From assembly GCF_000526195.1 (NCBI RefSeq), contig NZ_JAFP01000001.1, positions 1,152,001 to 1,216,000 on the forward strand: a stretch of DNA of 64,000 nt. Direction: 5' to 3'. The notes below the pieces were generated by a model that had not been told where the DNA came from, made no database searches, and worked only from the letters and a program-made list of their open reading frames with translations. Made by a program: the position numbers and the translations under genes. This document shows, piece after piece, positions 1-16,465 of the stretch (positions within the stretch are counted from its first letter, which is position 1; each line of letters begins with the position of its first letter). The stretch is from Hippea sp. KM1 (GTDB lineage: Bacteria > Campylobacterota_A > Desulfurellia > Desulfurellales > Hippeaceae).

Positions 1-861
1 ATGGAAAAAATCATAGAAATAGAAAGACTTGTCCCAATAGCATCGGAAGACCTAAAAAAACTGAAACATTTGTTGGAGAATATGGAAAAAAACAGAAAGC
101 CTGTAGTTGCCGCTATAGGTTTATATAACCACGGCAAGAGCTCAATATTAAACGCTTTGATTGACGATTTAGATAACAGAACTTTCAAAGTAGCCGACAA
201 AAGAGAAACAAAGAGAATAGAAATAAAAGATATGGATGATTTTGTATACATGGATACACCTGGTATAGATGCAAGGGAAGACGACGACAGAAGGGTTTTA
301 GACGCTGTCATGGATATTGATGCTATACTTTTTGTTCATAACCCTTCAACAGGTGAGCTTGCAAGCAAAGAAGTGGAGTTTTTACATCTGATTAGAAAGA
401 GTTTTAAGGATGTTAGAGAATTTGCAGATAGAACGATTTTTGTGTTGTCTCGTATAGATGAATTGGAAGAGGGTGAGGTTGAAAGGGTAAAAAATAAAAT
501 AAAAAGCCAAATAAAGGAATACTTAGGAGCTGATATTTACATAAAAGAGGTGTCGGCCAAAAGGTATTTTAAGGGTGTAAAGGAAAACAAAAATATTTTT
601 ATTGAAAAAAGTGGTATAGTTTCCTTGATGGATGCGATTTTTACTATAATTAGATTAAATGCTGACAAAATGATGGCTTCTAAAAAAGAGAAAGTTATAA
701 AAACCATAGATTCTATAATATCTAATTTAAACAGAAGAGCTAAAAAACTGTATAAAGAAGTAAATATTCTAACACAAGAAAAGCAAAAATTTGAGTCAGA
801 CATTTTTGAGGAATTGTGGCTAATAAATTCTACAATAGAAGAGTACAAGAAAGCTTTATAA
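1..861 (+). CDS. Dynamin-like GTPase, first gene of cassette
   Basis: Predicted GTP-binding protein of the bacterial dynamin/LeoA-like type, 286 aa. Residues 40-48 form a P-loop (GLYNHGKSS), residues 85-88 are the DTPG switch motif, and SRID at 150-153 stands where a canonical N/TKxD guanine-specificity motif is expected, so that motif is degenerate. Residues about 225-286 are charged and probably helical, as in the stalk of dynamins, but much shorter than usual. No signal peptide or membrane segment is visible. The reading frame starts at base 1 of the window, so any upstream start, promoter or further operon gene is unseen. It is followed after 12 nt by a small helical protein and then two larger GTPases on the same strand. 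Its role is not known; membrane-associated GTPase is the family expectation. Confidence 0.75.
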   Translation: MEKIIEIERLVPIASEDLKKLKHLLENMEKNRKPVVAAIGLYNHGKSSILNALIDDLDNRTFKVADKRETKRIEIKDMDDFVYMDTPGIDAREDDDRRVLDAVMDIDAILFVHNPSTGELASKEVEFLHLIRKSFKDVREFADRTIFVLSRIDELEEGEVERVKNKIKSQIKEYLGADIYIKEVSAKRYFKGVKENKNIFIEKSGIVSLMDAIFTIIRLNADKMMASKKEKVIKTIDSIISNLNRRAKKLYKEVNILTQEKQKFESDIFEELWLINSTIEEYKKAL

Positions 862-873
862 GTGGAGGATCGT

Positions 874-1302
874 ATGTTTATTATATATGATTTAGTTGAA
901 TACATTTATAATCAAATAAAAGAATTAGTTGACCCTGAGCCAACGCCAACACCGCCATCTCATGCCTATAGAAAGAAAGACGAGAGCGAGTATTTAAAAA
1001 GAAAAAAACAGGAAGAGGAGAGGCGAAGATATATATTAAGCAGGGAGTTGAACTCATACAAAAGCCAATCTGCTATATTCATGAAAAACAAATATGGAGT
1101 TACAATAAACTTTGAGCCCAGTGGGTCGGATATCCATGAGTTAGGCTCTAAACGTATAGACTTTAAAAATGTTTTTCTGGTGTCTGCAGGAGAACAATAT
1201 AAAAACCTTTGTTATGAGATAGAACAAAAGGAAAGCGAGTTAAAGAGGATAGTTGAAGCGATTAATGAATTAGAAAAAATTAAAAGGAGTATGCAGGGAT
1301 GA
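874..1302 (+). CDS. Small helical/coiled-coil protein of GTPase cassette
   Basis: Predicted 142 aa protein with no family that I recognise. The start chosen is ATG 874 because GGAGG lies five bases before it; an upstream in-frame GTG (862) overlaps that ribosome site. After a hydrophobic N-terminal stretch there is a Pro/Thr-rich linker (around residues 20-32), then a Lys/Glu/Arg-rich helix and a C-terminal heptad-like helix. It lies between two dynamin-like GTPase genes and its stop overlaps the next start (ATGA), so translational coupling is likely. By context it could be a partner, or the detached helical arm of the short GTPase upstream. This is inference only. Confidence 0.6.
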   Translation: MFIIYDLVEYIYNQIKELVDPEPTPTPPSHAYRKKDESEYLKRKKQEEERRRYILSRELNSYKSQSAIFMKNKYGVTINFEPSGSDIHELGSKRIDFKNVFLVSAGEQYKNLCYEIEQKESELKRIVEAINELEKIKRSMQG

Positions 1303-3074
1303 ACACTGAGGTAATGGAGAAATTTTATAGGGGAATAGAGGAAATAAGTGTTCATTCAAAGGATTCCCAGGCATTTCTTGAGAGGATAAATAAGATACTG
1401 GAAGGTTTCTCCAAAAAAGTGGAAGCAACTGATATAGCGCGCAGTTTAAGAAAAAATAGGGACATGTACGAACTGGCAACCAATGTTTTAGAGAATATAA
1501 AAAACGGTGTAAATGCTTGGAATGCAGAAATAAACAAATTAATCAAAGAGGAAAAGCTCAGGGAGGAGCTTAGAAATGAATTTGTTGTTATAATCTATGG
1601 TAAAGTGAAAGCAGGGAAAAGCACGCTTGGCAATTTTGTAGCCAAAAACCCAATCAGCAAAAAACTTAATAAAAAGCCGTTCTTTTTTGTTTACGACAAA
1701 GCGGGTAATAAACAAAGTATAGAAGAGCTACAGGAAATAAAGGATGACTCAGGATTTAAGACGGACACTTTGGAATGTACTTCGGAAATACAGGGTTTTA
1801 AGCTTGATGGGTTAGCTTGGATTGATACGCCTGGTTTAGCGTCTATGAATAAGGAAAACGGCGAACTGGCCAAACAGTATATAAACGCAGCCGATTTTAT
1901 AATCTTTCCTACTTCTTCTGATTCGCCTATGCAAAGAACAGAAATGAAAGAAATAGGCGAGCTAATAGAGTACAACAAGGTCTTCTATATTGTGATTACA
2001 AAATCAGACACATTTGAAGAAGACGAAAAGGATGGTGAAATTGTTAAGATAATCGTCAACAAAAGTCCAAGCACACGCAAGGCCCAAGAAGAAGATGTAA
2101 GAAAAAGGCTTAAGGAAGAGATAAATGATGTAAAGGATGAGATATTGAAAAATATAATATCTATCTCTGTTTTAACTGCAAAGAAAGGGCTTGAAGAAAA
2201 CAACGAAGAGTTGTTCGAGGGGAGCAATATAAAAGAATTCTATCATCTTATGAATGAAAAACTGGTTAAAAAGGCCGAATTTGTTAAAAAAAGCTCAAGA
2301 GAAGAAAGAATAGGAGGATTTATAGAAAATACCGTACTTGAAAACATAAGCAATCTAAAAAAACAGCTCACTTTTCTCGATGAGAAAAAGGCGGAAATAA
2401 GAAAAAAACTTGAGAGACTAAAGAGCGATTCGGTAAACGATGTTTATCAAATTGTAAACTTTGTTGTAGCTAAAAAGAGAGGAGAAATAGAATCTACGAA
2501 TATCAAGTTAAAGGTAAAAGAGATAGTTAAAGAGGTTAACGATGAAATTAAAGGTTTTACGATAGATAATTTAAAAAGTGTTTTTGATGAGTTCGATCAA
2601 GCATTGCTCAATTTTAGTATCAATCTCGATCCAGAAAAATACAAGATAAAAGAAAAGCATGAGAAGATAGAGATTTCAAGAGAAAAAGTATACAAGGATG
2701 TAGGTGGAGTTATTGGTGGAGCTATTGGTGGAGTTATTGGTGGAGCCATAGAAGGAGCTATTGTGGGATCAGAAGCAGGGCCAATAGGCACAATAATTGG
2801 TGGCGTAGTAGGTTTAATCATGGGAATGCAAGCTGGTAAAGCTGTTTCCACAACAAAGGTAGAAACAATAAAAATCGGTGATACAAAAGAAGAAACGCTG
2901 GCAAAACTAAGAGAGGATCTTATCAAAACCAAAACTGAAGAGGTTCAAGGTGCTTATGACTATATTTTGGAGAGCTTTTTGTACGAAATTGATAAAGCGA
3001 CACTCAAAATACATGAGTTGATAGAGAATTTTGAAAATGAAATGAATAGGTTATTGCAAGAAATAAGGGGGTGA
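1299..3074 (+). CDS. Dynamin-like GTPase with glycine-zipper segment
   Basis: Large GTPase, 591 aa. An N-terminal helical region (1-92) precedes the G domain: P-loop GKVKAGKS at 101-108, DTPG at 176-179 and an intact G4 motif TKSD at 234-237. Residues about 330-460 are long charged helices. About 467-511 is a striking Gly/Ile/Val repeat (VGGVIGGAIGG and similar), a glycine zipper of the kind that inserts into membranes. A final helical region follows. This order (helix, GTPase, helical stalk, membrane segment, helix) matches bacterial dynamin-like proteins, where the segment acts as a membrane paddle. The gene overlaps the previous one by 4 nt and is followed by another GTPase after 3 nt, so the proteins may work as a hetero-oligomer, as described for LeoABC of enterotoxigenic E. 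coli. Function here is inferred. Confidence 0.75.
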   Translation: MNTEVMEKFYRGIEEISVHSKDSQAFLERINKILEGFSKKVEATDIARSLRKNRDMYELATNVLENIKNGVNAWNAEINKLIKEEKLREELRNEFVVIIYGKVKAGKSTLGNFVAKNPISKKLNKKPFFFVYDKAGNKQSIEELQEIKDDSGFKTDTLECTSEIQGFKLDGLAWIDTPGLASMNKENGELAKQYINAADFIIFPTSSDSPMQRTEMKEIGELIEYNKVFYIVITKSDTFEEDEKDGEIVKIIVNKSPSTRKAQEEDVRKRLKEEINDVKDEILKNIISISVLTAKKGLEENNEELFEGSNIKEFYHLMNEKLVKKAEFVKKSSREERIGGFIENTVLENISNLKKQLTFLDEKKAEIRKKLERLKSDSVNDVYQIVNFVVAKKRGEIESTNIKLKVKEIVKEVNDEIKGFTIDNLKSVFDEFDQALLNFSINLDPEKYKIKEKHEKIEISREKVYKDVGGVIGGAIGGVIGGAIEGAIVGSEAGPIGTIIGGVVGLIMGMQAGKAVSTTKVETIKIGDTKEETLAKLREDLIKTKTEEVQGAYDYILESFLYEIDKATLKIHELIENFENEMNRLLQEIRG

Positions 3075-3077
3075 AGT

Positions 3078-4589
3078 ATGGAAAATGGCTTGATAAACAA
3101 AAACTACTATCTTGAAAAAATCGAAAGTATAAAAAAATGTTTGCCAGGAGATTCTGATGTTCTCGAATTAGAAAAAAAGGTTAGAGAGAAACTTGAGGAA
3201 TTCAGACCTTATTTAATGGTCTACGGCATATATAATTCTGGAAAAAGCACATTAATAAACGCCCTTTTTGGAAGAGATGTGGCCGAGGTAGATGATGTGC
3301 CAAAAACTGATAAGGTGCAGAAATATGAAATTAACGGTGTTATCATTTATGATACGCCAGGAATCGATGCACCTATAGAACATGAGAGGGTAACAGAAGA
3401 ACATCTAAAAAAATGCGAAGTAGTGCTTTTTGTGATGAGCAGTGATGCCTCTTTTGAAGAGAGAAAAGTTTATGAGAAAATAATAGAAATTTTAAAGATG
3501 AATAAGAAGGTCATAATTGTTCTAAACAACAAAAGTGGTGTTGATAACAAAGAAGGACAAAGAATGCTTAATAGAATCGAGGGAAACTTAATTAAAGTAA
3601 TGAACGAAACGGGTTTTAAGTCTGATAATATAGAAAGTTATTTTGTTAACCTAAAAAGCGCTTTAAAAGCAAAAAAAGAGAACAAGGAATTATTATTAGA
3701 GAAAAGCGGGATAAGGACCCTTGAACAAGCCATAGTAAAGGCAGCTATGCAATCTAAAGAAAATATATTGACGACCGTAGAAAACCTCATTTCTAATTTT
3801 ATTAGTGATAAGATAGAATCTCTAAGCAATCAAATAGAAGATGCAGTATTAAAAGAAAAAGAAAGGGTGCCATTAAGCATAAGAAAAGGAAAGGAAAGGG
3901 TGAAATACGAGGCTTTTGCTTTAATTGAGAAGAAAATCATAGATATGAGGGAAAAGATTAGAAGCTTGTTGTTAGAAAATACGGATTCTTACACTTTAGA
4001 AAACTACATTAGAAAAGAAATATTGGAAATACAGAATGAAATTTCCAATAAATTACAACAATCATCCGAATTTATTCTGGGCGAGGTAAATCTAACCATT
4101 AAAAAATTAGAGGAATTAGAAAACCAATTAGGTGGAGAAGACTCTGGAATAGGAGAGTACATTGAGAGTGGCTTGAAAGTGCTAAAAAACAAAGAAGTAA
4201 CCCAAAAAGGCCTATATTCTCTTCTTTTAAAACTAAGAGAATTTAAAGTACCTGGAATTAAAGGAAGGTGGAAAAGAACGCTTACTAAATGGGCAGGAAA
4301 ATGGGCCCAGCGCTTGGTAGTAATTTTTTCTATTGTGGAAATTGGTATTTCAATCAAAAAGCAAATGGACATGGAGAAAGAATTAAGAGAAAATATGATT
4401 AGAGCTAATAGTTTAGCAAGAGAGATAACCAATGAGATTGAAAATAATTTGAAGTCGTTTATTGAGGAAGCTATAAATGAATCTTACGGACCTATAGAAG
4501 AGCAGCTCGAGACTGAAATTTTATCACTAAAAAGTGAAAAGAACGAAGTAACAAGTAGAATAGATTGTCTTAAAAGTGTAGGGTTATAA
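3078..4589 (+). CDS. Dynamin-like GTPase with a membrane segment
   Basis: GTPase of 503 aa. P-loop GIYNSGKS at 50-57, DTPG at 92-95; the G4 position reads NNKSG (150-154), not NKxD, so nucleotide specificity is uncertain. Residues about 225-345 and 430-500 are predicted helices, and one hydrophobic stretch (about residues 412-430, RLVVIFSIVEIGI) could span or insert in a membrane. The P-loop region resembles the first GTPase of the operon (GLYNHGKS), suggesting old duplication, while the third gene is more distant. The start is ATG 3078 with an AAGGGGGTGA ribosome site. It is the last gene of the cassette; a hairpin at 4681-4713 probably ends the transcript. The cassette borders a CRISPR locus on the other strand. 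Confidence 0.72.
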   Translation: MENGLINKNYYLEKIESIKKCLPGDSDVLELEKKVREKLEEFRPYLMVYGIYNSGKSTLINALFGRDVAEVDDVPKTDKVQKYEINGVIIYDTPGIDAPIEHERVTEEHLKKCEVVLFVMSSDASFEERKVYEKIIEILKMNKKVIIVLNNKSGVDNKEGQRMLNRIEGNLIKVMNETGFKSDNIESYFVNLKSALKAKKENKELLLEKSGIRTLEQAIVKAAMQSKENILTTVENLISNFISDKIESLSNQIEDAVLKEKERVPLSIRKGKERVKYEAFALIEKKIIDMREKIRSLLLENTDSYTLENYIRKEILEIQNEISNKLQQSSEFILGEVNLTIKKLEELENQLGGEDSGIGEYIESGLKVLKNKEVTQKGLYSLLLKLREFKVPGIKGRWKRTLTKWAGKWAQRLVVIFSIVEIGISIKKQMDMEKELRENMIRANSLAREITNEIENNLKSFIEEAINESYGPIEEQLETEILSLKSEKNEVTSRIDCLKSVGL

Positions 4590-4991: not shown

Positions 4992-6607
4992 ATCTCGAAA
5001 TCACCATTTAACATACTCCCCAGTCGACCCGCTGTCTTCTTTGAGGCTCCTCTTTATAAAAATAGGTTTTATGTCTCGAAATCACCATTTAACATACTCC
5101 CCAGTCGACTCGAATAAAATTTTAGAGGAGGTGTCAGAATGGTGAATTCGTCTCGAAATCACCATTTAACATACTCCCCAGTCGACATGTATTCTGGACC
5201 AGAGGATTTCTTACTTAGTTTGAGAAAAGTCTCGAAATCACCATTCAACATACTCCTCAGTCGACTGCTCTTTCTGGACGAGTTGACAAATATCGACCGT
5301 CCAGACACGTCTCGAAATCACCATTCAACATACTCCTCAGTCGACTTCTAGAGCAGAGGATTTCTTACTTGGACTTCAAAAACTGTCTCGAATTCACCAT
5401 TCAACATACTCCTCAGTCGACAAACCCTTGAGAAGGACTCAAGCCTTCTCGGGGATAGGATTGAGGTCTCGAAATCACCATTTAACATACTCCTCAGTCG
5501 ACTTTCATTCGAAGAACTGCTCCACAGTTTACGGATGCTGAGACTTGTCTCGAAATCACCATTCAACATACTCCTCAGTCGACCTGGAGCAAGGAGTTTG
5601 AGCATCTGGGGGATTTGGTCAACTTGTCTCGAAATCACCATTCAACATACTCCTCAGTCGACAAAGTTCTTGTTACCACTGACAAATTGCCTCCTGATAT
5701 GTCTCGAAATCACCATTTAACATACTCCCCAGTCGACTCTAACGGATTCCTCAATATGGATTGGGAGAGAGCATATCAAGTCTCGAAATCACCATTTAAC
5801 ATACTCCCCAGTCGACAGAAATGGTTCAAGACAGGGTTCTATGTAGGAGTTGTTACATCTGTCTCGAAATCACCATTTAACATACTCCCCAGTCGACGGG
5901 TCAACTGCAAAAAGTCAAAGAGGAACACTATACAGACGTGGTGTCTCGAAATCACCATTTAACATACTCCCCAGTCGACAATGATTGCTATGTATATTAT
6001 CCCTAAAATCACCCAAGTGTCTCGAAATCACCATTTAACATACTCCCCAGTCGACGAAGAAAACACTTGGTGAAGTCCCTTACGGGATTATAGCAAGTCT
6101 CGAAATCACCATTTAACATACTCCCCAGTCGACCAACAATCTTGATAGAGTTGAAATATTTGCTTCGTAGGATCGAGTCTCGAAATCACCATTTAACATA
6201 CTCCCCAGTCGACAAAAGTTGATGATGTTGTAATGTTATTAAACAAATTGTTGTATTGTCTCGAAATCACCATTTAACATACTCCCCAGTCGACTGTTCG
6301 GAGCCATTATTGGATCCACAGAGCTGGACGAGGAAACGAAGTCTCGAAATCACCATTTAACATACTCCCCAGTCGACAATATGGATTCTACGTGGGTACT
6401 GCTATAACAACAATCCGTCTCGAAATCACCATTTAACATACTCCCCAGTCGACAAAATAAACTAAAGGAGGTGTTTTGAATGAGGCCGTTAGACGTCTCG
6501 AAATCACCATTTAACATACTCCCCAGTCGACGAGATCTCGAGACAAAGATTTATTGATTTTATTAAAAAAGTCTCGAAATCACCATTTAACATACTCCCC
6601 AGTCGAC
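4992..6607 (-). CRISPR. CRISPR array, 21 repeats of 37 nt and 20 spacers
   Basis: Direct repeats of 37 nt on the + strand begin GTCTCGAAAT and end AGTCGAC; spacers are 38-46 nt. Repeat starts are 4992, 5073, 5150, 5229, 5309, 5385, 5466, 5547, 5626, 5701, 5780, 5861, 5943, 6019, 6097, 6177, 6258, 6341, 6417, 6495 and 6571. Transcription is probably on the - strand: read that way the repeat ends TTCGAGAC, similar to the 8-nt 5' handle of type III crRNAs, a promoter and leader lie just right of 6607, and the cas genes are on -. The newest spacers are then at the right. The first repeat has A for G at its first base. Repeats 4, 5, 6, 8 and 9 carry TTCAAC/CTCCTC instead of TTTAAC/CTCCCC, and repeat 7 is a hybrid. 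A Cmr (III-B) system adjoins. Confidence 0.97.
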
Positions 6608-6621
6608 TGGTGTTATAACTA

Positions 6622-6650
6622 AGCATAATGCAAATTGCCGATTTTTTCAA
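6622..6650 (-). promoter_or_regulatory. Likely promoter of the CRISPR array
   Basis: On the - strand, TTGAAA (6650-6645) and TATGCT (6627-6622) are separated by 17 nt, close to the sigma-70 consensus. Transcription would begin within a few bases of the first repeat (ending 6607). This supports right-to-left transcription of the array. Confidence 0.5.
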
Positions 6651-6685
6651 ATCAATGGTTCTTGTTGTTTCTATGCAGTGATAGA

Positions 6686-7008
6686 AAAAAGTTGGAGAAT
6701 GTATGCCTAAATTCATTTTCAAACCCTGCATTCTGGGCATGTCATTTTCAGATATTGGCGTTTTGACAACAAATTAACTTTTGAAAAAGTTAGAGAATCA
6801 CCTTGTAAGATACAAAATAACCCTCGATTCTCCAACTTTTGCAAAAACACCCCTTAGAAAATGGCGTCAAATCAACATCCAAAAATCGCAAAAATCAAAA
6901 AGTTGGAGAATCGATTTTCAGAAAGACAAAAATATGGGATTCTCCAACTTTTTTGAAGCGATAACGAAATTATGTAAAAAATAAGGGGTAAAAAAGTTGG
7001 AGAATCGA
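6686..7008. repeat. Six copies of a 16-nt motif in the CRISPR leader
   Basis: The motif AAAAAGTTGGAGAATC occurs at 6686-6700 (+), 6784-6799 (+, one mismatch), 6826-6840 (-), 6897-6913 (+), 6938-6954 (-) and 6990-7008 (+). Copies two/three and four/five form two inverted pairs spanning 57 and 58 nt, so each could fold into a 15-16 bp hairpin with a 26-nt loop. The sequence between arms is not conserved. The whole AT-rich stretch 6608-7013 separates cas2 from the array and contains no convincing gene. The role is unknown: protein-binding sites for spacer integration or array transcription, or two copies of a small mobile hairpin, are both possible. Confidence 0.8.
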
Positions 7009-7013
7009 AACCG

Positions 7014-7286
7014 TTATACAAAACCATCAAAACCACAGAAAACACCGCCATTAGAATGAAGTAAAAATGATTTTTCAACACAGCTTTTGCAGATGTGGTA
7101 AAACCTAATATTATCTCTTCTTTTGCTAACGCTTTTTAGCTCCCTCACAAGCTCTTTTAGTTGCGTCTTGTTAAGCTCAACCTCAAAAACAGAGAAGTTT
7201 ACCCTGATACCATAGCCTTCAAGTATTGAAGCGACCTTTTTTCTTCTTTTGTCATCGTCTATATCGTAAGCAATAAGAAAAAACAT
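7014..7286 (-). CDS. cas2: CRISPR-associated endonuclease Cas2
   Basis: Cas2, 90 aa, the dimeric partner of Cas1 in spacer capture. The N terminus has the ferredoxin-like Cas2 pattern, YDIDDDKRRKK followed by GYGIRVNFSVFEV. The C-terminal tail has two closely spaced Cys (ICKSC), not usual for the core fold. The start chosen is ATG 7286, which shares its A with the TGA stop of the RT-cas1 gene (TGATG), implying coupled translation; an in-frame TTG one codon upstream is less likely. It is the last cas gene before the leader. Confidence 0.92.
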   Translation of the reverse strand: MFFLIAYDIDDDKRRKKVASILEGYGIRVNFSVFEVELNKTQLKELVRELKSVSKRRDNIRFYHICKSCVEKSFLLHSNGGVFCGFDGFV

Positions 7287-9400
7287 CAATACCTTCCAAT
7301 AAAGGGCCTGTATTTTTTATCTTTTAAAATAGCATCCTTGAGCCTTAAAGCCTGCATAAATATGACATTTTCCAACTTTCTTTGCTCCTTTCTGTAGATA
7401 GTATAACTTGCAAGGCGTTCGTAAATGTTTTTTGAGATGTTCTTTTTTGACTCCAGTGTAAGCTTACCCTCCAAATCAACCTCTATTTTTTCGTTTTTAT
7501 TAATCATGGAAAAAATGGTTCTATCAACTATGTAAGTTCTAAATTCCTCAATCAAATCGAATACCAGCGTTGGTTTGGTAGAATCAAGAGTATGTAGGTA
7601 TGAAATATGAAGAGAAAGGCCAGCATAGATTAAAGCCTGCCTTATTTTGCCGTATAGTATGGCATAGCCGTAATTTAAGGCTGAGTTAATTTCATCCTTC
7701 GCATCCTTTGTTATCCTTGAGAAATCCCTTTTTATGACTTTTGAGATGGCCTTCCAATAAAGATTTGAGCCGCCGCCTTCTATACCCATTAAAGAGTTTA
7801 TATCTCTTGCTTTTTCAGCCTTTTTTATAGATTGGCTGAGCCCATTTATTTCTATGTCCAATATATCGTGGTATTTGTTTAGGTACTTCAAATAGTTTTT
7901 CTGATTTTTGAGTTTTCCTAAAACAAAGGATTTTGCAATCTCAAGTTGCTTCGGTGTTCCTAAAATAATTGCTTGCTTGTGTATATTTTGATGCGTTGAA
8001 GCCTTGTAGTAGCTAATACTTGCATAAGGAAAGTGCTTTTTATCAATAAAATCCAAAAAAATCTTCTCTTTTGCACATCGATAAATGACATCGCTACTTA
8101 AAAGAAAACCCCTTCCTTCAAAAATTATCCTTTCGACCTTTTTAATAGGAAAGGATTTTACCACTCTCCTGTTTTTCTTCAAAACAAGCTTATTCCTACT
8201 AACACCCAGCATAACGCCAAATCTATTGACATGGATTACGGATGAGGCAAGGAGCCTTTTCTGGGTTTCAACCTTCTTCTTTTTTATCTTCTGATCTACC
8301 GTTATGAGTTTATTGTGGGCTTTTTTCAAACATAGATTTATTACGCCTTGTTTATTTGTAAACATGTTCAAAAATAGAATATTTTTAGATTTCTCTCTGA
8401 GTTTGCTCTTTGATGCTACAAACCCTTTCGTTTTTGAAATAATCATAGCGTTTGTAAGAGACTCAATAACGGCAGATTTAATGAATTTGTTATCTGGTGA
8501 GATTCTTAGGTAATAATTTTTTAAAGCTGTAAAGTATGTGTTCATCTTCTCTACATACTCATCAAACGGTAAACGGGAGTAGTCTTGAAGTTTCTGTTGG
8601 ATTCTTTTTACTCTTTCTTTATCAATTGTCCTGAATCTGTTTGTAAAATAGGCTCCTAAAAAAGCAAAGCCGGAGTCGGTTGTGGTTATATATGTCTTTT
8701 CCTCATTCAGACCCAGTTTATAAACCTTTAGAAATCTCTTTAGGTTTCTGTGGATGAGTTCAATTCTATCGTGCGTCTTTGCAAAAACAACAAAATCATC
8801 GGCAAATCTAACAAAATTAAATCCGTGTCTCTCTAAAAACTTGTCCATCCTATCAAGATATATATTTGAAAGTATGGGAGATATTATATTGCCCTGATGA
8901 ACACCAAGATTATGATCCTCATATTCCAAATTCTTAACAGTTCCAATTTTTATATACATCATAATCAAATCTATCAGACTATCATCTTTTATTTTCTCTT
9001 TAAGCATGCAAATCAAAAGGGAGTGGTCAATTGTCTCAAAGAAATCTTTTATATCTGTTTTAAGCACATATTTTTCGCCCCTTTTTATGTAGTCAAAGGT
9101 TCTATTAACCGCCTTTAGTGGTCCTTTGTTTGGCCTGTAAGCATAGGATTTATCTGAAAATGAAGAATCAAACAGTTCTGTTAGATATTCGTGAAGCAAT
9201 GCCTGTACGATTTTATCCTTTTTTGAGGCTATTGTTATGGGTCTTATCTTATCGTGTTTTTTTAACTCTATTTTTTGAGGGGGTTCTGGTATATAAGTAG
9301 AATTTTGGAGAGCTCTAAATAGGTTCTCTATTTCCTTTTCTGGTAAATGTATTTCTCTTTTTAAAGAAACTCTTTTTAAATTCTCCCTGGTAAATATCAT
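7286..9400 (-). CDS. cas1: Reverse transcriptase-Cas1 fusion
   Basis: A 704 aa fusion of a group II intron-type reverse transcriptase (about residues 1-330) and Cas1 (about 375-704). RT residues are intact: KTDIKDFF with Asp116, QGNIISPILSN at 169-179 and FADD at 199-202. The Cas1 half keeps the MGIEGGGSNLYW glutamate region (about 538) and the LVFDLIEEFR metal-binding region (about 615). In studied systems (Marinomonas type III-B) RT-Cas1 with Cas2 captures spacers from RNA as well as DNA, so that activity is expected here. There is no N-terminal Cas6 domain, unlike some relatives. The start has GAGGGTGTGA before ATG and lies 86 nt inside the end of the upstream CARF gene. Confidence 0.95.
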   Translation of the reverse strand: MIFTRENLKRVSLKREIHLPEKEIENLFRALQNSTYIPEPPQKIELKKHDKIRPITIASKKDKIVQALLHEYLTELFDSSFSDKSYAYRPNKGPLKAVNRTFDYIKRGEKYVLKTDIKDFFETIDHSLLICMLKEKIKDDSLIDLIMMYIKIGTVKNLEYEDHNLGVHQGNIISPILSNIYLDRMDKFLERHGFNFVRFADDFVVFAKTHDRIELIHRNLKRFLKVYKLGLNEEKTYITTTDSGFAFLGAYFTNRFRTIDKERVKRIQQKLQDYSRLPFDEYVEKMNTYFTALKNYYLRISPDNKFIKSAVIESLTNAMIISKTKGFVASKSKLREKSKNILFLNMFTNKQGVINLCLKKAHNKLITVDQKIKKKKVETQKRLLASSVIHVNRFGVMLGVSRNKLVLKKNRRVVKSFPIKKVERIIFEGRGFLLSSDVIYRCAKEKIFLDFIDKKHFPYASISYYKASTHQNIHKQAIILGTPKQLEIAKSFVLGKLKNQKNYLKYLNKYHDILDIEINGLSQSIKKAEKARDINSLMGIEGGGSNLYWKAISKVIKRDFSRITKDAKDEINSALNYGYAILYGKIRQALIYAGLSLHISYLHTLDSTKPTLVFDLIEEFRTYIVDRTIFSMINKNEKIEVDLEGKLTLESKKNISKNIYERLASYTIYRKEQRKLENVIFMQALRLKDAILKDKKYRPFIGRY

Positions 9401-10493
9401 TCACACCCTCAAGGAAAAATCTCTTCATGTTGTCCTTTAAATACCTATTGGTGCTCATAAAGGTTATGTTGTGAATCGAGCCCCTTTTTATGGTTTCGTA
9501 TCTTATATCGCTTAATCTACCTGTTATAACGACGGCCCCCCTACCCTCATCGTCTATAATAGATTTAAGCGTCGCATACTTAAAAAGCAGGCTTTCTAAA
9601 TTCACGCCATATTGGTTACGCCAACTTGTCGGTCTTCTATTCTTGCACTCTATAACATGCAAATGATTATCCTTCATTAGTAAAACATCAAACTCATTTT
9701 CAACACCCTCGTTTTCTATTCTTAAACCCACCCTAACATCGTCAAAGCCAAGCTCCTTTGCTAAGATATAAACATAATATTCCAGCGGATCGCCCAATAT
9801 AACTTGGTTAAAATTTTCAACTTTATTAAATTTATCCAACAGGCCAATCTCTTTAAGAATTCTTTTTACATCCTTAAATTTTTCATTATTAAACAAAAAA
9901 TCAAACTTGTTTGCAGACAAAACATAGGCCCTTTTAAAGTCGATGTAATCTCTAAACAGTTTTGTAAATAGCAATTTTATTTTTTCTGGATGCCTATTGG
10001 GTATAACTTCGCTTTTTGACTCTAAAACCTCAATGCCTTTGAGCAAAAAATGGTCCTTTATTGGAACTGAATCTGTTATTTTTTCCTTCTTTATGCCACC
10101 CATATCAACGATTGAGTAAACATTATCAAATATATCGTATGAGACAATTTTTGCGCCAAGCGGCAGGGTTTTTAGTGACATATAGGTGTTAATAAAAGAC
10201 AGCCCATCGGTTGTGTTAATAAAGATATCTTTATCTGCCAAATCAAAAATAAACCTTATAGCCTTGTCGATAGATGAAAAAGAGTGTTCATCGATAGTAT
10301 AAAGCGTGTTTCTTATATCGAGGTTATATTTATCACAGAAACCATCAACACCCTTTTTGAATTTATGGGCTTTCTTTTTCGATCTTTCGGATTTGTCTGA
10401 GATGATAATATGCGTCTTTATTTCATCTTTGAGCTGATAAAAAATAGGCGCAACAGATGAAAAATAATCGCCGATTACGCTAACCAGTATCAA
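9315..10493 (-). CDS. CARF-domain nuclease, Card1/Can2-like (DUF1887)
   Basis: 392 aa. The N-terminal half is a CARF-like Rossmann domain, which in this family binds cyclic oligoadenylate made by Cas10. The C-terminal half is a PD-(D/E)xK nuclease: GDPLEYYVYILAKELGF, then EFDVLL (catalytic Asp) and HVIECKN (ExK). Family members Card1 and Can2 nick DNA and/or cut RNA when activated. The CARF loop reads NTTDGLSF where many relatives have TGGTK, so ligand contacts may differ. It sits in the cas operon between cmr6 and RT-cas1. Because Cmr2 here lacks an HD nuclease, this protein is the obvious signalling effector. Confidence 0.85.
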   Translation of the reverse strand: MILVSVIGDYFSSVAPIFYQLKDEIKTHIIISDKSERSKKKAHKFKKGVDGFCDKYNLDIRNTLYTIDEHSFSSIDKAIRFIFDLADKDIFINTTDGLSFINTYMSLKTLPLGAKIVSYDIFDNVYSIVDMGGIKKEKITDSVPIKDHFLLKGIEVLESKSEVIPNRHPEKIKLLFTKLFRDYIDFKRAYVLSANKFDFLFNNEKFKDVKRILKEIGLLDKFNKVENFNQVILGDPLEYYVYILAKELGFDDVRVGLRIENEGVENEFDVLLMKDNHLHVIECKNRRPTSWRNQYGVNLESLLFKYATLKSIIDDEGRGAVVITGRLSDIRYETIKRGSIHNITFMSTNRYLKDNMKRFFLEGVNDIYQGEFKKSFFKKRNTFTRKGNREPI

Positions 10494-10503
10494 AACTTAC
10501 CTC

Positions 10504-11598
10504 TTAGTTTAGTAAACTTTGAATATACTCCATCCTTTCCCTTGCCTTCTTGCCCATTTTCTTCTTTTTCTGCTTGGGGGTTTTATCAAACTCGTTTTTT
10601 ATAAAGGCTGCAAGCTTTTTAAAGTCATATTCATTTGGGTCAATCTCATTGTTTTTCATCTTGTTGACCAACTCTGTCAATTCATTTTTTCTTCTATACT
10701 CTTCAAACAGCCTTTCTTCTTTTGACAGAGACTTTAATCTTCTCTCCTCTTGCTCTTTTTCGGCTTCTGCTCTTTTTGCCTTTAATTCCCCATCTCTCTT
10801 TCTCTTGGCTTCGTCCAACTCAACCATCTCGAAATGACCATATCCCGATGCCGTTTTTGCTCCTATTCCACCTTCCAACAACAACCTAAAGAACAAGTAT
10901 TCCTTCTCATCTGCGGATATAATCCCGTCGCGGAGTATAAAGTTAAATTCAAACTCAACTCCAGGCCTGACTTTAATCATTTTTATAGGTATTGGCTCCT
11001 TAAACGGTTCATGTGGTGCAAGATAGTCTTCAGCCAAAATAGGGGCGTTTTTTGTTACAATGCAAGCATCGAGAAACTTGTCCCTTTCATACAGGGGTAT
11101 GTTTTCTTTGGAACCGTTTTTATGTCTTATTCCTTCAAATATTTCATCCTTGAGTTGGTCTATGTTTAGGTCTCTCTTTCTTAGAATATCCCTTATAAAT
11201 TCTTCTTTTTCCTTCTTGATGGCTTTGTCGGTATCCTCAAAGAAACTCCTTAAAACCCCCTTTATGCTGCTTGATGGTATAGTTGGCAAACCCGTTGTGT
11301 AATCAAAGTAGAAACCCATCTTTATATCCGAGTTGTCATCAGGAAGACCGTGAAAATAACCTACACCTACAAGGAGACCCGGATATGCTACTTTGAGTCT
11401 AAAGCCGTGTGTGGATATTAATCTGATTTCCTTTAATAGGTCATCCTCATAATCAACCCTTGACTTAAGACCATCAAGAACCCCGCTATCAACCTTAATC
11501 TTATTTCCACCTTTATTTGATTTAACATACAACCTCTTATAGAACAGCCACCCTAAATTGCCCTTAACAATTACATTCTCATTTTTGCCTTTGTTCAT
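10504..11598 (-). CDS. cmr6: Type III-B RAMP protein Cmr6
   Basis: Cmr6, 364 aa, a Cas7-fold subunit capping the Cmr effector next to the 3' part of the crRNA. RAMP features are the YPGLLVGVGYFHGLP region, SSIKGVLRSFFE and the glycine-rich GGIGAKTASGYGHFE. The last ~100 residues are an unusually long Lys/Glu-rich, probably coiled tail. The start is ATG 11598, preceded by GGCAGGAGA; the longer frame from 11637 lacks a ribosome site. It overlaps cmr5 by 20 nt. Confidence 0.9.
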   Translation of the reverse strand: MNKGKNENVIVKGNLGWLFYKRLYVKSNKGGNKIKVDSGVLDGLKSRVDYEDDLLKEIRLISTHGFRLKVAYPGLLVGVGYFHGLPDDNSDIKMGFYFDYTTGLPTIPSSSIKGVLRSFFEDTDKAIKKEKEEFIRDILRKRDLNIDQLKDEIFEGIRHKNGSKENIPLYERDKFLDACIVTKNAPILAEDYLAPHEPFKEPIPIKMIKVRPGVEFEFNFILRDGIISADEKEYLFFRLLLEGGIGAKTASGYGHFEMVELDEAKRKRDGELKAKRAEAEKEQEERRLKSLSKEERLFEEYRRKNELTELVNKMKNNEIDPNEYDFKKLAAFIKNEFDKTPKQKKKKMGKKARERMEYIQSLLN

Positions 11599-11941
11599 TT
11601 TTCTCCTGCCCCTCAAGTTTAAATGTTCTGAGTGCAAGCTTAAGTGCGACAGCGGCCGCCTCGATGTCCTTTTTTTTCTTTAGTGCCACATCCTTAATTT
11701 GACCCTCACCTATGTCTAATATGTATTCGATTGCCCTTAAAACCTTGCTTCTATCCTCTTGAGAACCCGCATTTCTGTTTTCAAAAAACAGCACTGTTGG
11801 CAAGATGCCTGCCTGTCTTATTGAAGCACCAAATGATGATATATATCCGTTGTATTCCTTTGCTACCTTTCCATCTTTAGATGCTATTTTCTCTTTTACT
11901 GCCTCTAAAGCTTTCGGTATATATTTCTCCACCTTGTTCAT
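11579..11941 (-). CDS. cmr5: Type III-B small subunit Cmr5
   Basis: Cmr5, 120 aa, the small all-helical subunit forming the minor filament of the Cmr complex. Identified by size, helical composition, motifs such as SFGASIRQAGILPTVLFF and position between cmr4 and cmr6. The start is ATG 11941 in an ATGA overlap with the cmr4 stop. Confidence 0.88.
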   Translation of the reverse strand: MNKVEKYIPKALEAVKEKIASKDGKVAKEYNGYISSFGASIRQAGILPTVLFFENRNAGSQEDRSKVLRAIEYILDIGEGQIKDVALKKKKDIEAAAVALKLALRTFKLEGQEKNEQRQK

Positions 11942-12774
11942 TTTTCTATCTCCCTGAATCTGCATATTCCATAACCGATGGATGCGTTTGCACCGAGTTG
12001 AATTACATTTTTGGGTGATGTTATCTCAGATACAAACCCCTCCTCAAACCTCTCCAATTGTTCCTTGTCGTCTTTGTTTAAATTTGTTGGAAAGGAAAAT
12101 ACAGTAAAGAATTTGCTCTTTTTGGACAAAACTTCCTCGTAAAATAGATTTATACTTATACCATTCTCTAACTTGTTTCTGGCTATTGTCGGTAAATCCT
12201 CCACATACTCTTTGAATTTGTACTCAAGTTTCTCAGGATACACTATTATCCTTTCCTCTTTGAAAAGTTCGGTTAATACGCTTAAATCAACATCACTTTT
12301 AGTGACCTTTTTATCTTCATCTTCTACCTCGTAATCGCCGTTTGAAATGATATTACCGCTATCTTTGATTCCTTCAAGAAACCCTTTCAATTGTTCATTC
12401 AACGGCATTTCAACACCCAAATGGTTAAGAAAATCAAGCAGGTTCTTTAAGGCGAATGCCGATGTTGCAAAAACATACGGTTGTTTTGAACTCCTTAAGG
12501 GCATGCCTAAAAACATGGCTTCAAAAAACTTTACACTACCGGGATTTTTGTTTTCATCACCAAACACATACTTTATAAATTCTTTGCTCTCTTTTAGGCC
12601 TACCTCAAAGAACTCCCTTAATGCACCCTTCAATGAAGAAGAATGTATAGTTGGATACCCTGTTAACACATCCCTTTGGATAAGGTTGTCTATAATTCCA
12701 AAGTTTGCCTCTCCACTGCCCACATGCATGTTTGTAATATTCTCGATAATAAAAACCCTGTTTTTGTAATTCAT
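11938..12774 (-). CDS. cmr4: Type III-B backbone RNase Cmr4
   Basis: Cmr4, 278 aa, the Cas7-like backbone subunit that cuts target RNA at 6-nt intervals. The N terminus has the diagnostic HVGSGEANFGIIDNLIQRD; Asp28 in this loop aligns with the catalytic aspartate of the family. SSSLKGALREFFE and the C-terminal GANASIGYGICRF complete the RAMP fold. Target RNA slicing should therefore be active. It follows cmr3 by one base. Confidence 0.93.
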   Translation of the reverse strand: MNYKNRVFIIENITNMHVGSGEANFGIIDNLIQRDVLTGYPTIHSSSLKGALREFFEVGLKESKEFIKYVFGDENKNPGSVKFFEAMFLGMPLRSSKQPYVFATSAFALKNLLDFLNHLGVEMPLNEQLKGFLEGIKDSGNIISNGDYEVEDEDKKVTKSDVDLSVLTELFKEERIIVYPEKLEYKFKEYVEDLPTIARNKLENGISINLFYEEVLSKKSKFFTVFSFPTNLNKDDKEQLERFEEGFVSEITSPKNVIQLGANASIGYGICRFREIEK

Positions 12775-12775
12775 T

Positions 12776-13789
12776 TCAACACTCCTTGTATCTATTCATA
12801 CCTATTTTTTGCAGGTTTGCTATATCCAGAAACTCCTTTAGCTTTTGCCTGTTATGGGTATAGATAACACTTCCTGCTTCAAGCACCCTCTTCCTCGAGC
12901 TCTTTCGGTTTCCTGTTCTTGTTATGTTTCTGATTATCCTGCTTTCACCCAAAATAAAGTCGCACCACTTAAGGGCTTTGGGTGGCAGAATGGTATCACT
13001 TAAGATAACAATCCTTTCAAATCCGTCTTTTTTATCAAAATCAAAGTCCTCAAAACCATCCTCAAGGGTTAGTTTAAAAAGACTGTTTTCACCACCCAGC
13101 TGCACTACTCCCTCAAGATTCACTTCTTCTTCTAACTCAACAGCCAAACCAAAACTGAAGCCGTTTTTCAGTCTGTACATTATCTTCTGAAAAAAACCCT
13201 CATCTTTAGAACCCTTGTTTATGCCTACACTCCAGACCTCTTCAAATATGTCATCCTCACTCACAAAGTCGCTTTTATGTATAAAACCGCCGAAGCTATA
13301 TTTCTTTGGGTCTATTCCAAAATCTATAAAATCCTTCTTAAAATTGCCCAAAAAAAGTTCCACCCCCTCTATCTTTCTTGGGTTTAGTTTCAAATCAGCT
13401 GGTGCTCTGTAGTAAATTTTTCTGTCTCTTACTAAGAATACATTTGATATACTTTTAATAATTCCAAAATCCAGTTCTTCTTGGGCATCAAAATCAAAAG
13501 GCTTATCTCCCACCAATTTTACAACTTCTATAAATTCAGGATTATCTTGATTTGGGTTTCTTTTAGGCAGATCAACCCACTCTCCCCTTTTATGCGTGGT
13601 TAGTTTGCCTTTTGCTCTTAAAATCTCCTTCCTTAACATGCCCAGAATCGTCGTTTGTTGTGGCAACTTGAAGCTTTTTGCAAAAAACCTTGCTTTTTCC
13701 TCGCTCCTTAAATCATCAACGCTAAATGTGTGTTCCCCTCCAAAGAAATATGGCGTTAATGGGGTCAATGTTAAGAACTTTCTAATCAT
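12776..13789 (-). CDS. cmr3: Type III-B subunit Cmr3 (Cas5-like)
   Basis: Cmr3, 337 aa, which binds the 5' handle of the crRNA and contacts Cmr2. The start LTPLTPYFFGGEHTFSVDD and the following LPQQTTILGMLRKEIL are typical of Cmr3. It overlaps the cmr2 end by 8 nt. The C terminus is divergent (THNRQKLKEFL), and the usual final glycine-rich RAMP motif is weak. Confidence 0.88.
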   Translation of the reverse strand: MIRKFLTLTPLTPYFFGGEHTFSVDDLRSEEKARFFAKSFKLPQQTTILGMLRKEILRAKGKLTTHKRGEWVDLPKRNPNQDNPEFIEVVKLVGDKPFDFDAQEELDFGIIKSISNVFLVRDRKIYYRAPADLKLNPRKIEGVELFLGNFKKDFIDFGIDPKKYSFGGFIHKSDFVSEDDIFEEVWSVGINKGSKDEGFFQKIMYRLKNGFSFGLAVELEEEVNLEGVVQLGGENSLFKLTLEDGFEDFDFDKKDGFERIVILSDTILPPKALKWCDFILGESRIIRNITRTGNRKSSRKRVLEAGSVIYTHNRQKLKEFLDIANLQKIGMNRYKEC

Positions 13790-15236
13790 CTTCCCTACCT
13801 TCCAATAGCTTTATCATACTCAACATGGAAAAGAGATTGTTAAACTCCTCATCAAAACTCCCTTTTTTTACTCTGTTTTTATACTTTTCAAGCAAACCCT
13901 TAACCTCAATTAGACCTGCTTTAAATTTGGTTTTGTGTATCTCCTCGTTAAAGAAATTCTCAAAGAAATTGTCCAAGTTTATGTTGTTTTCAATAAGGGC
14001 CTTTAAGTTTCTTAATTTGTATTGAAAAGAGTGCGGAAATTCTATCTCATCCGATAGTGCTCTTTTCAATAAATTCTTAAAATCCGTATAAATGTCGCTG
14101 TCGAATTGTTCTGTGAACTCAAACAACTGGCCGCTGTGTTTTCTAACTTTTACACAAACAGCGTTCTTTTTGGACTTAGCCTTTGCAAACAAAGCCTCCC
14201 TTGATTCCTTCAGTGCCTCATAAAGGGGAAATTTGTAATAGGAGATACTTACACCAAAGCTCAAGGAAGTCTGAATACCGCTTTGCGTATTTTTGTTAAA
14301 CTCCTTAAATGCTTCATCGTATTTTTCTCTTAATTCATCTATTAAATCAAATATGGTGCTTTTATCTCTGAAATAGACGGGAGAGAAGAATAGTAAATCA
14401 TCTCCACCCATAAAAACAATATTGCATCCCCTATCTTTCTTTAATAATATTTTTTCTGCTTCTTTCGTGAAGTTAAATATCATCTCGGATGTCTTTTTGC
14501 CTTTCTCTTCTACAACCTTGCTTAAGTTATCTCCATCTGCATGAACTATGGCTATGTATTTATAAACCTTTAAAAACGGCTCTTCGCTTTCTTTTAGCTG
14601 TTCCTTTAAAGCTTTGTAATAATCATCTTCCTCTTTATCCAGTGCAAATTTTACCTTCACGCCGCTACCCTTGCTGGCAATCTCTGCAATACTTTCATAA
14701 CCCCCTTTTCCGCAATCTTTATAGAGCCTTGATTTTAAAATTCTTTCTCTTATTAAGAACCTTTGAAGATAATCTTTATAATCCGAAGGGCACTCAAAAT
14801 AGTCTATATTGTTTAACAAGCGGCTCACTTCTTTTATAGGGTTTTTAAAATCCTGAAATACCTTTATATATGGGATTCTTATGTATGTGTTTATAAACTC
14901 AAAAACCCTGTTTTTATCCTCATTTATTGCATCTGCAATTAGTTCTGACACATTTTCTTTTACTTCTTGCACAAACCTGTTTAGATCTCCATCTATTTCT
15001 TTTTTTGTTTCGATAATTATTCTATCGGCAAACCTTCCAATGCCACCATCCCTTTTCTCAAACAGACTATCTTCCACATGAGGCACCAAAAATTTCACAT
15101 CAGGATTGTCTTTTAATTTGGAGGCTAAATTCTTCATCATATAGCTGAACATATAACTCGCAGCCCAAATCTCAGCCATCTTTCTTCCCATAGATATGGT
15201 CTCAACAATAGGGGAAATTGTTATTCCATAATACAT
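13782..15236 (-). CDS. cmr2: Cas10/Cmr2 without HD domain; cyclase intact
   Basis: Cmr2, the Cas10 large subunit that converts ATP to cyclic oligoadenylate when target RNA is bound. Only 484 aa: it begins directly at the first palm-like domain (ISPIVETISMGRKMAEIWAASY), with no N-terminal HD nuclease domain, which most full-length Cas10 proteins have. The second palm domain keeps HADGDN (about 235) and FMGGDDLLFF (about 277), the GGDD catalytic motif. Direct ssDNA cutting by HD is therefore not expected, while signalling is. It sits between cmr1 and cmr3. Confidence 0.92.
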   Translation of the reverse strand: MYYGITISPIVETISMGRKMAEIWAASYMFSYMMKNLASKLKDNPDVKFLVPHVEDSLFEKRDGGIGRFADRIIIETKKEIDGDLNRFVQEVKENVSELIADAINEDKNRVFEFINTYIRIPYIKVFQDFKNPIKEVSRLLNNIDYFECPSDYKDYLQRFLIRERILKSRLYKDCGKGGYESIAEIASKGSGVKVKFALDKEEDDYYKALKEQLKESEEPFLKVYKYIAIVHADGDNLSKVVEEKGKKTSEMIFNFTKEAEKILLKKDRGCNIVFMGGDDLLFFSPVYFRDKSTIFDLIDELREKYDEAFKEFNKNTQSGIQTSLSFGVSISYYKFPLYEALKESREALFAKAKSKKNAVCVKVRKHSGQLFEFTEQFDSDIYTDFKNLLKRALSDEIEFPHSFQYKLRNLKALIENNINLDNFFENFFNEEIHKTKFKAGLIEVKGLLEKYKNRVKKGSFDEEFNNLFSMLSMIKLLEGREDD

Positions 15237-15238
15237 AG

Positions 15239-16465
15239 CTACTTCACCTTCTCAAAATTATTTAGCATCCCTTTTAGTTGCCCAAAATCTTTAGAGCCGT
15301 GATATTCTTTATCGACATATTCATCGAGCTTTACTTCAGATACATACCTAAAGAAATCATCAAAATCAAAATCCTCAAGAACCTTAATTTTAAAAGGCTT
15401 ACAATCAATAAATTTGCCCGTTGCTTCTATTTTTAGAGATGTTCCAAGAAATTCATCCAGTCTCTCTTCTTTTCTCCAATCCATAAAGAAATACACATCG
15501 AAACCATTTGATACTTTAATTGGTTTTATGGTGATAGGTGATTTGAATCTTTTTATTTTTCCACTTTGGTCAATTTTTTTAATATAAGCTGAATAAGTAA
15601 ACCACCTTTCATTTGAAGATAAACCAAAAATATCCCTAATATCCCTTTTTTTATCACCCGATTTTAAAACATCGCTGTATGGATAATTTTTTGCTTGAGA
15701 TACAAGAGCATCCGAAAAAAAGTTTTGCTTTATAACCCTCTTTTCCCATTCTATATCAGGAAATATTTTCTTCACATAGGAAAATACTGCTGGTTTGCAG
15801 TAAAAAACCGTTATTCTACTTTCTTTGGTTTTGTTAAAAGAAACTCTATTTATACCTTGCCTTAAGAATCTATAAAATAAATCTACATCTTTCAACGCTT
15901 CAATCCAATCGCTTTTGTTGATTCTCAGCTTGTAAACAAAACCATCTATAAGATTTGGCTTAAACTCTTTATCAGCTAAATAAAAGCTTCCATAACCCTT
16001 ACTCTGTCTTGTGCCAAAATTCGTGCTTGCTAAAAACGCCTCAAAATTATTCTCAATACAGTCCAATAAGGTCTTGTTAAAACTAAAAAAGGAAACGGTT
16101 ATCTTAGACAATGACCTCGAAAACCACTTTTCATGCGGTTTCTTGTAATTTTTATCGGCTTCAGAATAATTCTTGGGTGGTTTCTTATTACCAAGATTTC
16201 CAAAGTACAACGGTGTTTTCTTCTCGATCCCTTCAATTTTTATATTGTTTGCTTTAACAAAAACCTTGTATCTGTATTTGGTCTTAAACTTAATGAGATC
16301 ATCTTTATTTTTTGGATCACCTGCATCCAGAAAATCTTTACATTTGACCAGAAGAAACTTATCCAACTTAGACTTAAGCTCTGTGGGTCTAATTGTTGCG
16401 TTCTCGAGATTCTCAAAGTGAATTAGCGGGGTGTGTTGTATTAAGGAAAAATCTTTTCTATACAT
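15239..16465 (-). CDS. cmr1: Type III-B RAMP protein Cmr1
   Basis: Cmr1, 408 aa, the tandem-RAMP subunit at the 3' end of the crRNA in the Cmr complex. The N terminus SLIQHTPLIHFENLENATIRPTELKSKLD (residues 7-35, shown across the Cmr1 signature) and the later GTRQSKGYGSF loop are characteristic. It is the first gene of the cas operon; GAGG lies six bases before the ATG. About 150 nt upstream separate it from the divergent tRNA-Asn gene. Confidence 0.9.
   Translation of the reverse strand: MYRKDFSLIQHTPLIHFENLENATIRPTELKSKLDKFLLVKCKDFLDAGDPKNKDDLIKFKTKYRYKVFVKANNIKIEGIEKKTPLYFGNLGNKKPPKNYSEADKNYKKPHEKWFSRSLSKITVSFFSFNKTLLDCIENNFEAFLASTNFGTRQSKGYGSFYLADKEFKPNLIDGFVYKLRINKSDWIEALKDVDLFYRFLRQGINRVSFNKTKESRITVFYCKPAVFSYVKKIFPDIEWEKRVIKQNFFSDALVSQAKNYPYSDVLKSGDKKRDIRDIFGLSSNERWFTYSAYIKKIDQSGKIKRFKSPITIKPIKVSNGFDVYFFMDWRKEERLDEFLGTSLKIEATGKFIDCKPFKIKVLEDFDFDDFFRYVSEVKLDEYVDKEYHGSKDFGQLKGMLNNFEKVK

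Follow-up and report, generated by a model that had tools for sequence, protein, structure and literature searches.

The CRISPR array found at 4992-6607 of a 64,000-nucleotide stretch of the Hippea sp. KM1 genome (the window; contig NZ_JAFP01000001.1, positions 1,152,001 to 1,216,000) raises the question of which invader its spacers record and in which way they were captured. This array (array A) is composed of 21 repeats of 37 nt (GTCGACTGGGGAGTATGTTAAATGGTGATTTCGAGAC) and 20 spacers of 38-46 nt (A1-A20), and it shows the regular direct repeats, unique spacers and leader of a CRISPR array. The reading favoured here, to which we give a probability of roughly 0.85, is that its related spacers were captured independently by a type III-B system containing an RT-Cas1 fusion, which took sense sequence from a small number of genes belonging to a single family of invaders (viruses, most probably) that have diverged from one another. 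The invader is absent from the collections searched.

The system of array A is a type III-B (Cmr) CRISPR-Cas, located beside the RT-Cas1 fusion, and all its genes lie on the - strand. The adaptation module comprises cas2 (7014-7289, PF09827) and, adjoining it, the fusion (7286-9400; PF00078, PF01867 and TIGR00287), a single 704-aa ORF with an RT domain at about residues 47-250, whose FADD motif is intact, and a Cas1 domain at about residues 390-642. A Card1-like accessory nuclease (9315-10493, PF09002) is followed by cmr6 (10504-11637, TIGR01898), cmr5 (11579-11965, PF09701), cmr4 (11938-12774, TIGR02580), cmr3 (12776-13789, PF09700) and cas10/cmr2 (13782-15236, PF22335 and TIGR02577), the last of which has a GGDD motif; Cas10/Cmr2 and Cmr3, Cmr4, Cmr5 and Cmr6 are thus all recognised. 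The ORF at 15239-16465 gave no family match in profile searches, and gene order suggests that it is cmr1. A scan of the genome contigs with RT-Cas1 returned solely a relative that was already known.

Transcription of array A on the - strand follows from the position of its leader at the 6607 side, common to three arrays, from a degenerate repeat located at the 4809 end, as well as from a relative (L064) that has the same layout of repeat and leader beside RT-Cas1-Cas2 (an RT-Cas1 61% identical, cas2, a leader and the repeat GTATGCATAGAGGTTTGAGTTTTGGTGATTTCGAGAC). The leader (6608-7006, - strand) is homologous to those of two sister arrays: the match to the array B leader spans 399 nt at 96% identity, and the match to the leader of a one-spacer mini-array near 866340 spans 221 nt at 98%. 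Array B (about 1149979-1151101 of the contig; 1480-2602 of L009) is located about 6 kb from array A and contains 14 spacers (B0-B13), the repeat of array A and the copied leader, without cas genes of its own. A genome of the same family (G010) carries an array with the identical repeat and six spacers at the site orthologous to that of array B (L055, contig C62), the flanks of both sites being 89% identical; neither RT-Cas1 nor Cas10 was found in G010, so that its array is either an orphan or lies at an assembly gap. The repeats of array B are mostly TCC-T-CAG variants, from which the leader half of array A differs. In the middle of array A (5229-5662) there are repeats with paired variants (CATTC...CCTCAG) that are also found in array B, as if a block had been exchanged between both arrays. 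In the leader region (6680-7010), AAAAAGTTGGAGAATCGA occurs several times, some copies pointing one way and some the other, and the L064 leader has copies too.

In the initial annotation, spacers 3, 5 and 7 (5187-5228, 5346-5384 and 5503-5546, coordinates that are correct; A3, A5 and A7 here) were read on the + strand as versions of one viral peptide. The likeness of A3 (MYSGPEDFLLSLRK, + strand) and A5 (SRAEDFLLGLQK in 5347-5382, + strand) is real. They share 17 identical bases (CAGAGGATTTCTTACTT), more than any other two of the genome's 35 spacers, and about 6e-5 matches of this kind are estimated to be expected by chance; their peptides, SGPEDFLLSLRK and SRAEDFLLGLQK, reach a score of 36 (BLOSUM62, ungapped). 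When the full set of spacers was dinucleotide-shuffled 60 times, this score was attained once across all pairs and frames. Their edges differ by an offset of two codons.

Spacer 7 did not bear out that claim. Read as FEELLHSLRM, its best score is only 21, against spacer 3, a value that 166 out of 5000 shuffled versions of this spacer reach, and this frame was rejected; it has 54% DNA identity to spacer 3 across 8 codons, with three of the eight residues changed, and fits spacer 1 slightly better (score 22). In frame +1 (5504-5545, + strand), A7 encodes FIRRTAPQFTDAET, which scores 42 against B5 (FIKRTAPMYSNA), a level that none of 5000 shuffles reached, and 37 against B2 (FIKRSAPQY). Spacer 7 encodes, then, a different peptide in another frame, probably adjacent to that of spacers 3 and 5. 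All three probably derive from one gene, with spacer 7 lying just upstream and overlapping the start of the other two by at most 7 codons, although this falls short of proof: the residues at the end of the one group and the start of the other are compatible (MYSNAE / MYSGPED / SRAED / FTDAET), and when only end overlaps are considered the join scores 43, a value that 19 of 5000 shuffles attain (none of the 14 other cluster pairs scores above 18), whereas with every offset permitted its score is reached in 3003 of 20000 shuffles and the join is unsupported.

The same kind of relatedness extends well beyond these three spacers. Comparison of 41 spacers in all six frames (the 35 of this genome and the six of G010) yielded peptide clusters that take in 16 of the 35, so that 13 further spacers, unseen in the initial annotation, behave like the ones it had singled out. 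Cluster 1a is formed by A20 (EISRQRFIDFIKK), B2 (RLINFIKRSAPQY), B5 (VNFIKRTAPMYSNA) and A7, and cluster 1b by A3 and A5. Cluster 2 comprises B1 (FVAQQLRKWFKD), A11 (KWFKTGFYVGVVTS; 5817-5860, + strand, scoring 38 to B8 and 29 to A18), B8 (WFKYGFCSGLI), A18 (YGFYVGTAITTI; 6378-6416, + strand), B4 (SGLIVGTLLVEAKYL) and A15 (TILIELKYLLRRI; 6134-6176, + strand, scoring 34 to B4 in TLLVEAKYL). In cluster 3, the first 15 nt of A12 (GSTAKSQRGTLYRRG; 5898-5942, + strand) are identical to the last 15 nt of B13 (VSYDDIRGSTAK), giving the joined peptide VSYDDIRGSTAKSQRGTLYRRG; cluster 4 contains B6 (VLSKLLLKDKPNEYF) and B7 (LLLKDKPDNYIEK). Cluster 5 pairs A13 (MIAMYIIPKITQ; 5980-6018, + strand) with D4 (LVLMYIVPKITQNQ), a spacer of G010, at a score of 49 (to LVLMYIVPKITQ of D4). 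Some links (A20-B2, A18, B1) are not significant alone and lean partly on their fit in the tiling; A20 (6532-6570, + strand), the leader-proximal spacer, scores 27 to B2, and its position backs the assignment. The other 19 spacers match no other spacer in the arrays of this genome.

Chance or low-complexity similarity accounts for spacer 7 in the FEELLHSLRM frame and for pairs scoring no more than about 32, but as an explanation of the clusters it is already refuted and retains a practically negligible probability. Among the 41 spacers, a score of 34 or higher is found for eleven spacer-frame pairs, where the shuffles predict 0.05, and five of them score at least 38, a value that none of the 60 shuffles reached (their highest score being 36). 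At the DNA level, the identities of 17 nt (A3/A5) and 15 nt (A12/B13) stand against a maximum of 10 nt between any other spacers.

All spacers in the clusters read as coding sequence on the + strand. Of the eleven pairs scoring at least 34, ten are +/+, and the one left over is A13/D4 again, in its mirror frame. The crRNAs read the - strand and are therefore antisense to the + strand coding sequence, that is, to the mRNA. Divergence within most pairs amounts to 22-42% of bases (58-78% DNA identity), A12/B13 being identical where they overlap, and over seven independent pairs the differences at codon positions 1, 2 and 3 amount to 30, 11 and 38, second positions being spared, a count somewhat biased in that frames were picked by protein score. 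The proposal of repeated sampling at one position of one gene from diverging invaders is supported by the clusters, which show nearly always sense against sense pairing and a coding pattern of change, and this support goes beyond what the initial annotation could draw on; that spacer 7 has the same peptide is not supported, and a viral source is probable. The homology of A13 with a spacer from a related host somewhat favours a family of related invaders over a gene family within one invader.

The array, its leader and its repeats are duplicated in the genome, which could suggest that the arrays themselves generated the related spacers, by copying and then mutating them. This origin is very unlikely, because copied units would keep their edges and gain changes blind to frame, whereas the related spacers have different edges and overlap partially, and their differences respect codons; different edges point to separate captures. 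Two further spacers on the + strand contain gene starts: A2 (5110-5149) has a ribosome-binding site (AGGAGGTG) followed by ATG, and A19 (6454-6494) a gene junction composed of a stop codon, AGGAGGTG and ATG, a content that would be expected of polycistronic messages of bacterial type. At 6454-6570, the end of A19 (ATGAGGCCGTTAGAC) and the start of the next spacer, A20 (GAGATCTCGAGACAAAGA), read through as MRPLDEISRQRFIDFIKK; A20 may continue the gene begun in A19, coincidence being conceivable.

Sampling of the invader was far from even. There are two stretches of about 30 codons with six spacers each (the first only if clusters 1a and 1b are joined), and the tilings contain 18 spacer pairs that overlap by at least 15 nt if 1a and 1b are one stretch. 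Whatever target size between 1 and 40 kb is assumed, uniform sampling fails to yield both such hot spots and 19 unclustered spacers, and an estimate of target size on that basis was dropped since the two segments are far too dense for every size. Sampling, or spacer survival, must consequently have been uneven, whether through the abundance of certain transcripts, a preference for particular RNA segments or the conservation of some stretches; in part the pattern reflects ascertainment, because related spacers can be recognised only through conserved peptides.

Searches for the source of the spacers gave no match to protospacers, cluster peptides or concatenated spacers in the host genome outside the arrays, and a self-targeting or prophage origin was rejected for this reason. 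Among 24 relatives no protospacer was found beyond arrays; six weak matches fell in housekeeping genes or other frames, at chance level. Plasmid records contained none, and phage records gave only chance-level matches, those of spacer 3 in BLAST covering half its length with E values of 2-8. A scan of IMG/VR with exact degenerate patterns returned chance matches only: twelve were considered and failed, being in the wrong frame or in short frames, or belonging to a tail-protein family that has only DFIKRVAPMYG in common. Searches of Pfam, PHROGs and PDB with the spacer peptides gave nothing convincing. The genome collection holds only 25 genomes of the phylum, and close phages are therefore hardly sampled.

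As for the nature of the invader, we lean slightly towards a DNA phage or plasmid, from which type III interference selected antisense spacers and whose highly expressed genes were sampled most. The RT-Cas1 of Marinomonas takes spacers from RNA as well as from DNA, whichever way round, and it is interference that shapes the bias (PMC5576922); those RT-associated spacers that have matches are mostly directed against DNA phages or prophages (PMC5513706), a precedent that also speaks against an RNA virus. A DNA invader fits less easily with clustered spacers that are all in sense, when natural type III spacers are on average 65% from the coding strand (PMC8482600), and with the lack of a DNA match in the collections searched. 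The second possibility, tentative though with several observations in its favour, is an RNA virus whose RNA was copied into spacers by RT-Cas1 and which has no DNA copy. The intact FADD motif, the strict sense orientation of the clusters, gene starts with Shine-Dalgarno sequences captured in sense, the few heavily resampled segments (suggestive of a small target or of few abundant RNAs), rapid divergence with conservation of peptides and the absence of a DNA match anywhere in the collections searched are all consistent with it, and riboviruses are reported as targets of RT-containing type III systems in work cited in PMC10847044. However, the missing DNA match is a weak argument, since few phages of thermophiles have been sampled and scanning was confined to exact degenerate patterns, and no cluster peptide belongs to a Pfam or PHROGs family, which leaves no RdRp or coat evidence. 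The collections in which no protospacer was found were dominated by DNA. Strict sense is explainable by directed capture or by selection, and alone it does not prove an RNA source. The more specific idea that the arrays record a long-standing infection of a thermophilic bacterium by an as yet undescribed family of RNA viruses with small genomes, with two hot spots on the viral RNA captured repeatedly by RT-Cas1, is rather unlikely; if true, the spacer-derived peptides would be the first sequence of that family.

Under the favoured reading of independent captures from one invader family, RT-Cas1-Cas2 would take up pieces of invader RNA or DNA, and over time new spacers would be taken from homologous positions in related invader transcripts. 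By analogy with studied relatives (PMC5576922), capture from RNA and interference by Cmr may also operate here. Cmr-type interference needs antisense spacers (PMC5576922), and the inserts kept would be those whose orientation gives crRNAs antisense to the invader mRNA, so that the orientation observed probably reflects RNA targeting. Cmr with Cas10 (GGDD) would cut RNA that a crRNA matches, and a signal may pass from it to the Card1-like nuclease. Each of the two stretches would have been captured up to six times, the first of them with spacers 3 and 5 at one end (EDFLLxLxK) and spacer 7 just upstream (FIxRTAPxxxxAE).

The system itself is an ordinary member of the RT-Cas1 type III-B group. 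Like that of Marinomonas mediterranea MMB-1 (III-B), it has Cmr genes, an RT N-terminal to Cas1, Cas2, and spacers of about 40 nt that lack a known source and are oriented to give antisense crRNAs; unlike it, it includes a Card1-like nuclease, and in contrast to the acquisition in either orientation described there (PMC5576922), the spacers cluster on few peptides of one invader family. Almost none of the spacers in RT-Cas1 arrays match anything, and their source is an open question (PMC5513706). Arthrospira platensis, with an RT-Cas1 III-B system whose spacers have likewise practically no database match, has a hyperdiverse pool with one identified target site (PMC5513706), whereas here spacers match one another. 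The gene starts recall the bacterial ribosome-binding sites that precede genes of the riboviruses targeted by RT-containing type III systems (Neri et al. 2022, as cited in PMC10847044), although neither an RdRp nor any further hallmark of RNA viruses was identified among the spacer peptides. The unusual feature of the system is the common target family that its spacers reveal, RT-associated spacers being otherwise enigmatic (PMC5513706). Spacers that match one another provide peptide probes of 12-34 residues, whose frame and sense are known, for an invader not yet seen, which can thereby be sought directly in metatranscriptomes, metagenomes and viromes from hydrothermal sites, and translated comparison of spacers within and between related arrays is usable as a method to find target families in systems without a known protospacer. 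Between arrays A and B, the first part of the window (1-4589) contains several dynamin-like or Era-like GTPase genes (with a LeoA/HP0731-like match), possibly a further defence cassette.
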